Below, one piece after another: positions 31,808 through 33,114 of a stretch of DNA of 64,000 nucleotides. The stretch lies in NCBI RefSeq assembly GCF_036172515.1, contig NZ_JAXKVW010000002.1:62001-126000 (forward strand), given 5' to 3'. The translations under genes and the position numbers were made by a program. This DNA comes from Flexistipes sp. (lineage in GTDB: Bacteria > Chrysiogenota > Deferribacteres > Deferribacterales > Flexistipitaceae). A model generated the notes under the pieces. That model was not told where the DNA came from. It made no database searches and saw nothing but the letters and a program-made list of their open reading frames with translations. Within the stretch, counting starts at the first letter, position 1. The number at the start of each line of letters is the position of its first letter.

Positions 31808-32818
31808 TTACATATGTTTACCTACAGACAAAGCAACTGTTCTTATCTGTCCCATCATTTTTATAAACTCATCAGGATTTAGTGATTGTGCCCCGTCGCT
31901 TAGAGCATTCTCCGGGTCAGGGTGCACTTCTACTATCAAACCGTCTGCTCCAACTGCTATGGCAGCTTTTGACAGAGCGGGCACATAGTGCCAGTGACCG
32001 GCAGCATGACTGGGATCTATAATTATTGGAAGATGTGAGCGTTCTTTGACAACAGGTATACAGCTGATATCCAAAGTATTTCTGGTTGCCGTTTCGAAAG
32101 TTCTTATACCTCTCTCGCAAAGCACTACATTTTTGTTGCCTTCTGATAGAATATATTCTGCCGCCATGAGAAATTCATCTATTGTTGTTGCCATACCTCT
32201 TTTAAGGAGAACGGGCTTATCTGTTTGCCCCAGGAGTGTGAGCAGAGCAAAATTCTGAATATTTCTTGCACCCACCTGAAACATATCCGTATATTTGTAA
32301 ACGAGGTCGACATCCCTTGGGTTAACCACTTCTGTGGTGAAGGGGAGACCTGTTTCTTCTCTTGCCTGGGATAGATATTTCAAACCTTCTTCTCCCAATC
32401 CCTGAAAAGAGTATGGACTTGTACGTGGTTTAAATGCTCCTCCCCGCAGCATTTTTGCTCCGGCAGCCTTGACATATTGCGCCGATTTGACAATTTGTTC
32501 CTCGCTTTCCACTGCACATGGGCCGGCAATTACCGTGATTTCTTCCCCTCCAAACTGGACGCCGCTGACATCAACAGTTGAATATTCTTTTTTAACTTCC
32601 TTGCTGGCAAGTTTGTAGGGCTTAGTGATTGGCAAAACTCTGTCAACACCTTCCATATCTTCGATTATACCCATTTCACTTTTGCCGAGTCCCACAAGTC
32701 CCACCACATTTCTTTCTTTTCCGTAAATTACATGGGGCTTGAATCCCATTTCTTCACCTTTGCTGCAAATCCGATTCAGCTGAGCATCTGATGCTCCGAT
32801 TTTCATTACTACAATCAT
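31808..32818 (-). CDS. aroF: 3-deoxy-7-phosphoheptulonate (DAHP) synthase, type I-beta
   Basis: The 336-residue enzyme condenses phosphoenolpyruvate and erythrose 4-phosphate in the first step of the shikimate pathway. It has an N-terminal ferredoxin-like domain (about residues 1-70) fused to the barrel. The barrel shows A-G-P-C-A-V-E-S, the metal-binding cysteine in that motif, [23 protein letters not shown] and D-P-S-H-A-A-G. This architecture is found in regulated bacterial I-beta enzymes. GGAGG precedes the ATG. Upstream, on the same strand, lies a leader ORF and an intrinsic terminator that appear to form a Phe/Tyr attenuator. Confidence 0.96.
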
Positions 32819-32840
32819 GACAACCTCCGTTTTTAGATAT

Positions 32841-32877
32841 AAAAAAAGGCCGCAAGCGGTGTACCGCCTGCGGCCTT
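32841..32877 (-). terminator. Attenuator terminator upstream of aroF
   Basis: On the minus strand, GGCCGCAGGCGG-TACA-CCGCTTGCGGCC forms a 12-bp stem with one G-U pair and is followed by seven T. It ends 22 bases before the aroF ATG, inside the leader rather than after a gene. GCGGTACACC (32858-32867) of its left arm and loop can instead pair over 10 bp with GGTGTGCCGC (32910-32919), giving an antiterminator. Confidence 0.85.
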
Positions 32878-32905
32878 GGTTTACTTTGATAATATACTAC
32901 CCAGC

Positions 32906-33025
32906 CTACGCGGCACACCCCGAATCTCTGTTATAAAAAAAGAAAAAATAGAAAGAAAAATACTGAGAAGCAAAAGATATTGATGTGCCTAAAAGATTGA
33001 GTGCGGGTAAACTATTTTTAATCAT
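32906..33025 (-). CDS. Phe/Tyr-rich leader peptide of the aroF attenuator
   Basis: This 39-residue ORF runs from ATG 33025 to TAG ending at 32906, upstream of aroF on the same strand. Residues 22-31 read Y-F-S-F-Y-F-F-F-F-Y, that is six Phe and three Tyr in ten codons, the end products of the pathway. The stop codon lies next to the antiterminator segment (32910-32919), so a ribosome stalled at the Phe/Tyr codons would leave it free, and one reaching the stop would cover it. There is no ribosome-binding site; the predicted promoter places the transcript start at about the ATG. The T-rich DNA could give Phe/Tyr codons by chance, so this is predicted. Confidence 0.7.
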   Translation of the reverse strand: MIKNSLPALNLLGTSISFASQYFSFYFFFFYNRDSGCAA

Positions 33026-33031
33026 GTTAAA

Positions 33032-33060
33032 TAAATATAGACTAATAAAAATTATGTCAA
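33032..33060 (-). promoter_or_regulatory. Predicted promoter of the aroF leader
   Basis: On the minus strand, TTGACA occupies 33060-33055 and TATTTA occupies 33037-33032 with a 17-base spacer (an overlapping TATATT gives 15). The start would be near 33025, the first base of the leader ORF. Confidence 0.55.
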
Positions 33061-33080
33061 CAGTTTTTTTACCAGAGATA

Positions 33081-33111
33081 AAAAAAGCGGAGGCGAACCT
33101 CCGCTTTTTTT
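33081..33111. terminator. Terminator downstream of hcp
   Basis: AAAAAAGCGGAGG-CGAA-CCTCCGCTTTTTTT has an 8-bp GC-rich stem with A and T runs on both sides, just after the hcp stop. It also insulates the aroF leader promoter. Confidence 0.9.
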
Positions 33112-33114
33112 GGT

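Follow-up and report, generated by a model that had tools for sequence, protein, structure and literature searches.

A predicted leaderless Phe/Tyr leader peptide and a probable ribosome-mediated attenuator ahead of the type I-beta DAHP synthase gene aroF in Flexistipes and other Deferribacterales

Analysis of a 64,000-nucleotide stretch of Flexistipes sp. DNA (hereafter the window) indicated that aroF, which encodes a DAHP synthase, the first and committing enzyme of aromatic amino-acid synthesis, is very probably under the control of a ribosome-mediated transcription attenuator that senses charged tRNA-Phe and tRNA-Tyr. Our evidence comes from sequence and comparison, namely a leader ORF and its codon run, a pair of helices that exclude one another, the conservation and covariation seen in relatives, and the promoter spacing, and from these we infer the start site, the translation, the stalling and the Phe/Tyr response of the aroF leader. 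The attenuator is of the classical leader-peptide kind, well supported, and new in its lineage and enzyme class, and its most distinctive trait is a predicted leaderless start that is kept across families. Leader-peptide attenuation of the committing aromatic step is thereby added to a little-studied phylum, with 29 leaders compared, and cultured members should allow direct testing. The elements of the leader and the gene are as follows.

33055..33060, minus strand: -35 element TTGACA (sequence; TTGAC spacing in relatives)
33032..33037, minus strand: -10 element TATTTA, after a 17-nt spacer and ending 6 nt ahead of the leader ATG
32906..33025, minus strand: leader peptide ORF of 39 codons, predicted leaderless, with its ATG at 33025 and its TAG stop at 32908-32906 (sequence and comparison)
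32932..32961, minus strand: sensor run of 10 codons, YFSFYFFFFY (translation; in-frame enrichment over 27 leaders)
32910..32919, minus strand: antiterminator segment 2, GGTGTGCCGC, overlapping the last part of the leader ORF, immediately ahead of its stop codon
32858..32867, minus strand: antiterminator segment 3, GCGGTACACC, running from the 3' half of the terminator left arm through the loop into the first part of the right arm
32846..32877, minus strand: intrinsic terminator hairpin, AAGGCCGCAGGCGG-TACA-CCGCTTGCGGCCTT (terminator scan; covariation)
32841..32847, minus strand: T7 tract of the terminator (sequence; terminator scan)
32824..32828, minus strand: Shine-Dalgarno GGAGG of aroF (sequence)
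31808..32818, minus strand: aroF, type I-beta DAHP synthase, 336 aa (Pfam and structure-family alignment)

Translation of the ORF (33025-32906, minus strand) gave MIKNSLPALNLLGTSISFASQYFSFYFFFFYNRDSGCAA*, and nine of the ten codons of the sensor run (32961-32932, in the order Y F S F Y F F F F Y) were aromatic, six for Phe and three for Tyr, so that the 39-codon ORF with these codons at 32932-32961 in the original prediction was borne out in both coordinates and translation. The 12-bp terminator with seven T that had been placed 22 bases ahead of aroF was found there as well, its stem measuring 12 bp (14 bp counting flanking A-U pairs) and its T7 lying 22 nt from the aroF ATG at 32818. Four terminator-like sites were seen where 0.4 were expected, the terminator of the aroF leader being one of the four. 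The alternative pairing described as 10 bp with one G-U and exclusive of the terminator held to the base, with GGTGTGCCGC (32919-32910) pairing to GCGGTACACC (32867-32858), and the stop codon stands beside the antiterminator segment.

Across 51 genomes of the phylum Deferribacterota, a Phe/Tyr leader with hairpins was present in 29, variants included. Leader, antiterminator and terminator preceded the orthologous aroF in 24 genomes from five families of Deferribacterales, here labelled f1 (the family of the window, three genomes), f2 (four), f5 (12), f7 (three) and f8 (two). The conserved ORF, in-frame run, antiterminator and terminator in these 24 leaders support the proposed geometry of ribosome-mediated attenuation. 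The claim was open to refutation by relatives that had lost both the ORF and the alternative pairing, or in which the codons varied freely; the comparison instead came out for an attenuator.

The codon run was retained as coding sequence. When the 300-nt upstream region was dinucleotide-shuffled 1000 times, a single shuffle reached nine Phe/Tyr codons per 10 in any ORF, and seven consecutive Phe/Tyr codons matched 12 times in the whole genome (six in the reversed control), where, among the sites inspected, a short ORF together with a terminator was found only at the aroF leader. Over 27 leaders, compared in an interval anchored on the leader stop codon, 254 of 449 codons in the reading frame were Phe/Tyr, and the two other frames gave 115 and 107. 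Among close pairs of leaders, 56 of 100 codon changes at Phe/Tyr positions stayed within the Phe/Tyr(/Trp) set, a modest excess over the 40% expected of random changes, in pairs that are non-independent. Phe/Tyr codons rather than mere T-richness thus appeared to be conserved, as the run was kept in frame across the 24 orthologous aroF leaders. The tract is nonetheless about 77% T and no structure is more stable than the terminator, both of which would suit a plain terminator or fixed attenuator whose Phe/Tyr codons are a mere by-product of U-rich, unstructured RNA. This explanation is very unlikely, since base use depended on the place within the codon, C being commonest at position 3 (126 in the compared interval, against 20 and 44 at the other positions), the leader stop codon lies in or adjoins the antiterminator, the antiterminator covaries, and Trp codons are mixed into the run in the leaders of two further families, f4 and f10.

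Covariation argued for an attenuator with two competing helices, compensatory changes having been found in both across the 24 leaders. In alignment A2, 96.5% of the cells of the terminator helix were paired and 8 cells carried two-sided changes; its covariation score was reached by no shuffle, and two pairs went from G-C to A-U on both sides. Because plain MAFFT shifted the antiterminator of f5 one base out of register, a register-fixed alignment (A4) was made, with the register taken from predicted folds and leaders L012, L013 and L015 set by hand. In the antiterminator core of 21 distinct leaders, five pairs showed two-sided changes, amounting to 24 such cells and equalled in 0 of 500 shuffles, counts that are biased toward structure because the register of A4 came partly from predicted folds. 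Sliding the register collapsed the core, slid registers being far worse than the fixed one, and a clean compensatory example within one genus was AGCCG:CGGCT (L019, L020) against AACCG:CGGTT (L025). Duplexes of segments 2 and 3 were on average more stable in native combination (mean -23.5 kcal/mol) than in between-family swaps (-19.3 kcal/mol), although the best swaps equalled or surpassed some native duplexes.

These elements could act together as follows. RNA polymerase would begin at or beside the first base of the leader ATG. A ribosome would load on the leaderless 5' end and trail the polymerase. With Phe- or Tyr-tRNA scarce, the ribosome would stall in YFSFYFFFFY and leave segment 2 free to pair with the emerging left arm of the terminator, and transcription would run on into aroF. 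With both tRNAs plentiful, the ribosome would run on to the stop codon, which lies inside the antiterminator, and cover segment 2, upon which the terminator would form and transcription would end 22 nt short of aroF. Masked folding of the leader RNA of the window, with the ribosome anywhere on the run, gave the nascent antiterminator an energy of -30 to -31 kcal/mol; moving the ribosome to the stop codon reduced this to -4.6 kcal/mol and left the terminator intact. The full-length terminator fold, at -36.6 kcal/mol, was more stable than the nascent antiterminator, so the switch must be kinetic and operate during transcription.

A protector helix between segments 1 and 2, overlapping the sensor codons, was strong in some f5 leaders, with z as low as -7, and a local one occurred in f10 (z -2.5 to -3.1); none was significant in f1, f2, f7 or f8. 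A hairpin with the stop codon in its loop was considered as a universal protector of Deferribacterales leaders and rejected, as it was not significant.

Mutually exclusive hairpins are common to all devices of this general type, and the pair could in principle be governed without a ribosome, by a tRNA-binding T-box, a metabolite riboswitch or an RNA-binding protein. We judged this extremely improbable, the least likely explanation of those weighed here. An Rfam search of the leader region for riboswitches and T-boxes returned sub-threshold chance matches only, with no family at its gathering score; beyond the hairpins, what was conserved was a start codon at a fixed promoter spacing, the codon run and the stop codon; and no other conserved RNA core appeared in the alignments.

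The promoter-like TTGACA/TATTTA reported upstream of the ORF was located, with both elements in place. This promoter was absent from the output of a strict sigma-70 scan because its -10 element is weak. Judged by promoter spacing, the predicted transcription start coincides with the A of the leader ATG or lies no more than about 2 nt from it, and no Shine-Dalgarno was found for the leader ORF of the window. In 19 of the 24 Deferribacterales leaders, representing all five families and comprising every such leader of f1, f2, f5, f7 and f8 outside genus g10, the distance from TTGAC to the leader ATG was exactly 35 or 36 nt and the best -10 element ended 6-7 nt from the ATG. Most of these 19 leaders lacked a Shine-Dalgarno, and aroF itself has a strong one; in genus g5, a GGGAG-like stretch is present in the spacer between the promoter elements, ahead of the predicted start. 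The promoter-to-ATG spacing would place the start site at the ATG, and the leader ORF is accordingly predicted to begin as a leaderless mRNA, which the original prediction had missed. The fixed distance from promoter to ATG offers a natural system for ribosome-polymerase coordination from a leaderless start.

The five leaders of genus g10 (L021-L024, L026) had a longer 5' end and a Shine-Dalgarno-like sequence, with the rest of the attenuator kept. Leaders of f10 also had a longer 5' end.

Leaderless leader ORFs whose transcripts start at the ATG are known from trpL of Sinorhizobium meliloti (PMC7298713) and from the ilvB leader of Corynebacterium diphtheriae (PMC5784534). Both belong to other operons and amino acids, and their starts were mapped experimentally, whereas those described here are predicted from promoter spacing. 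The leaderless trpL peptide of S. meliloti acts in trans (PMC7298713), and by analogy the aroF leader peptide might itself be active, either as an arrest peptide that senses free Phe/Tyr or as a small trans-acting protein. This appears highly improbable for aroF, as particular residues should be conserved in an arrest peptide, whereas the leader peptides of Deferribacterales ranged from 23 to 41 residues and had little sequence in common between families outside the run, notably in their N-terminal parts; the Phe/Tyr run before the stop was always present.

Attenuation of a type I-beta DAHP synthase had been thought undescribed in this lineage. In a search that covered few subscription journals, no paper on leader-peptide attenuation in Deferribacteres was found, and the claim of novelty stands for the lineage and for the enzyme subclass; it does not stand for DAHP synthase attenuation as such, because in aroR-aroF of Corynebacterium glutamicum a leader peptide with Phe-Tyr-Phe attenuates the DAHP synthase gene (PMC4046766, PMC11802643). 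According to the account of Neshat 2014 given in PMC11802643, that attenuation responds to Phe and not to Tyr. The two systems are alike in having a leader peptide with Phe/Tyr codons before a DAHP synthase gene and stalling at them, but they come from unrelated phyla, and C. glutamicum has three aromatic codons against nine in ten here. The aroF enzyme of C. glutamicum is not known to belong to the ferredoxin-domain I-beta class. The pheL-pheA and pheST leaders of Escherichia coli likewise combine a Phe-rich leader ORF with a competing terminator and antiterminator, but they control prephenate dehydratase or Phe-tRNA synthetase and sense Phe only. Both start with a Shine-Dalgarno. For aroF of E. 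coli and Shewanella, post-transcriptional control has been suggested (Camakaris 1980, as cited in PMC2659441), with attenuation proposed for a Tyr-sensitive DAHP synthase; the Shewanella paper describes an attenuator sensing Tyr-tRNA but states that for this gene group a regulatory RNA structure had yet to be proposed (PMC2659441).

The product of aroF carries the catalytic domain PF00793 and an N-terminal ferredoxin-like domain, PF18152, by Pfam. It aligned over its full length to the DAHP synthase of Thermotoga maritima (1rzm, 3pg9), which we take to be a Tyr-inhibited type I-beta enzyme. The gene downstream lies on the opposite strand, and aroF therefore appears monocistronic; the upstream gene encodes a hybrid-cluster/prismane protein (PF03063) with its own terminator at 33079-33112.

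Outside the five families, the same layout preceded a DAHP synthase gene in the two genomes of a sixth, f4, where the leaders end NYFFGWYNMFSLR and NYFFYGWYITMVLRP. The f4 enzyme aligned with aroF only from about residue 61-90 onward, so the ferredoxin-like domain seems absent, and f4 may have lost the feedback domain while keeping attenuation. These f4 leaders (L160, L161) thus carry Phe, Tyr and Trp codons before a DAHP synthase seemingly without that domain. The three genomes of f10, more distant members of the same phylum, had the runs YFWQFYFFS, YFWQYYFFR and FFWQYYFR (L028-L030), with Trp inside the Phe/Tyr run and the sensor codons held in a local protector hairpin, and are nearer to the textbook layout of a trp operon. 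A second hairpin and T-run lie between the attenuator terminator and aroF in f10. Differences of this kind between relatives in the sensed amino acids offer a case of regulatory specificity evolving via codon turnover. We consider it somewhat probable that the design is phylum-wide, with the aroF and trpE attenuators leaderless, start site and start codon forming one locked position, and the sensed set having shifted in evolution (Phe and Tyr in most Deferribacterales; Phe, Tyr and Trp in f4 and f10).

At trpE loci, a Trp-Trp-Trp leader was found in 21 of 30, and Trp-Arg-Trp-Trp in one f10 genome. The distance from the -10 element to the ATG was 5-8 nt in the 20 trpE leaders examined, taking the best-placed ATG, and across the order the promoter spacing of trpE leaders also predicts leaderless starts. 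The genome of the window, outside the window itself (L110, G000:C24), has a leader ORF, MKIKIMLINNAWWWTVNGIS, and a terminator ahead of trpE. The same attenuator scan detected no leader before pheA, pheS or hisG in the lineage, and hits at leuA were rejected as leaders, their sequence identifying them as the ends of a conserved hydrophobic protein encoded upstream.

No leader before a DAHP synthase was found in families f3, f6 and f9; in f6 the only match, at about 50% identity, was the second DAHP synthase, encoded in the pheA operon. In most loci read, the gene for this second enzyme immediately follows an aminotransferase gene of that operon, and among the loci read none had a leader before it. 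Two more aroF copies (L038, L040), which are about 74% identical and come from assemblies that are unassigned or carry other names, also lacked a leader. The aroF of G040 (L025:1501-2514) has one in-frame TAG where the protein of the window has Glu, which is either a sequencing error or the mark of a decaying gene, and about 110 nt extra lie between its terminator and the gene relative to its kin.
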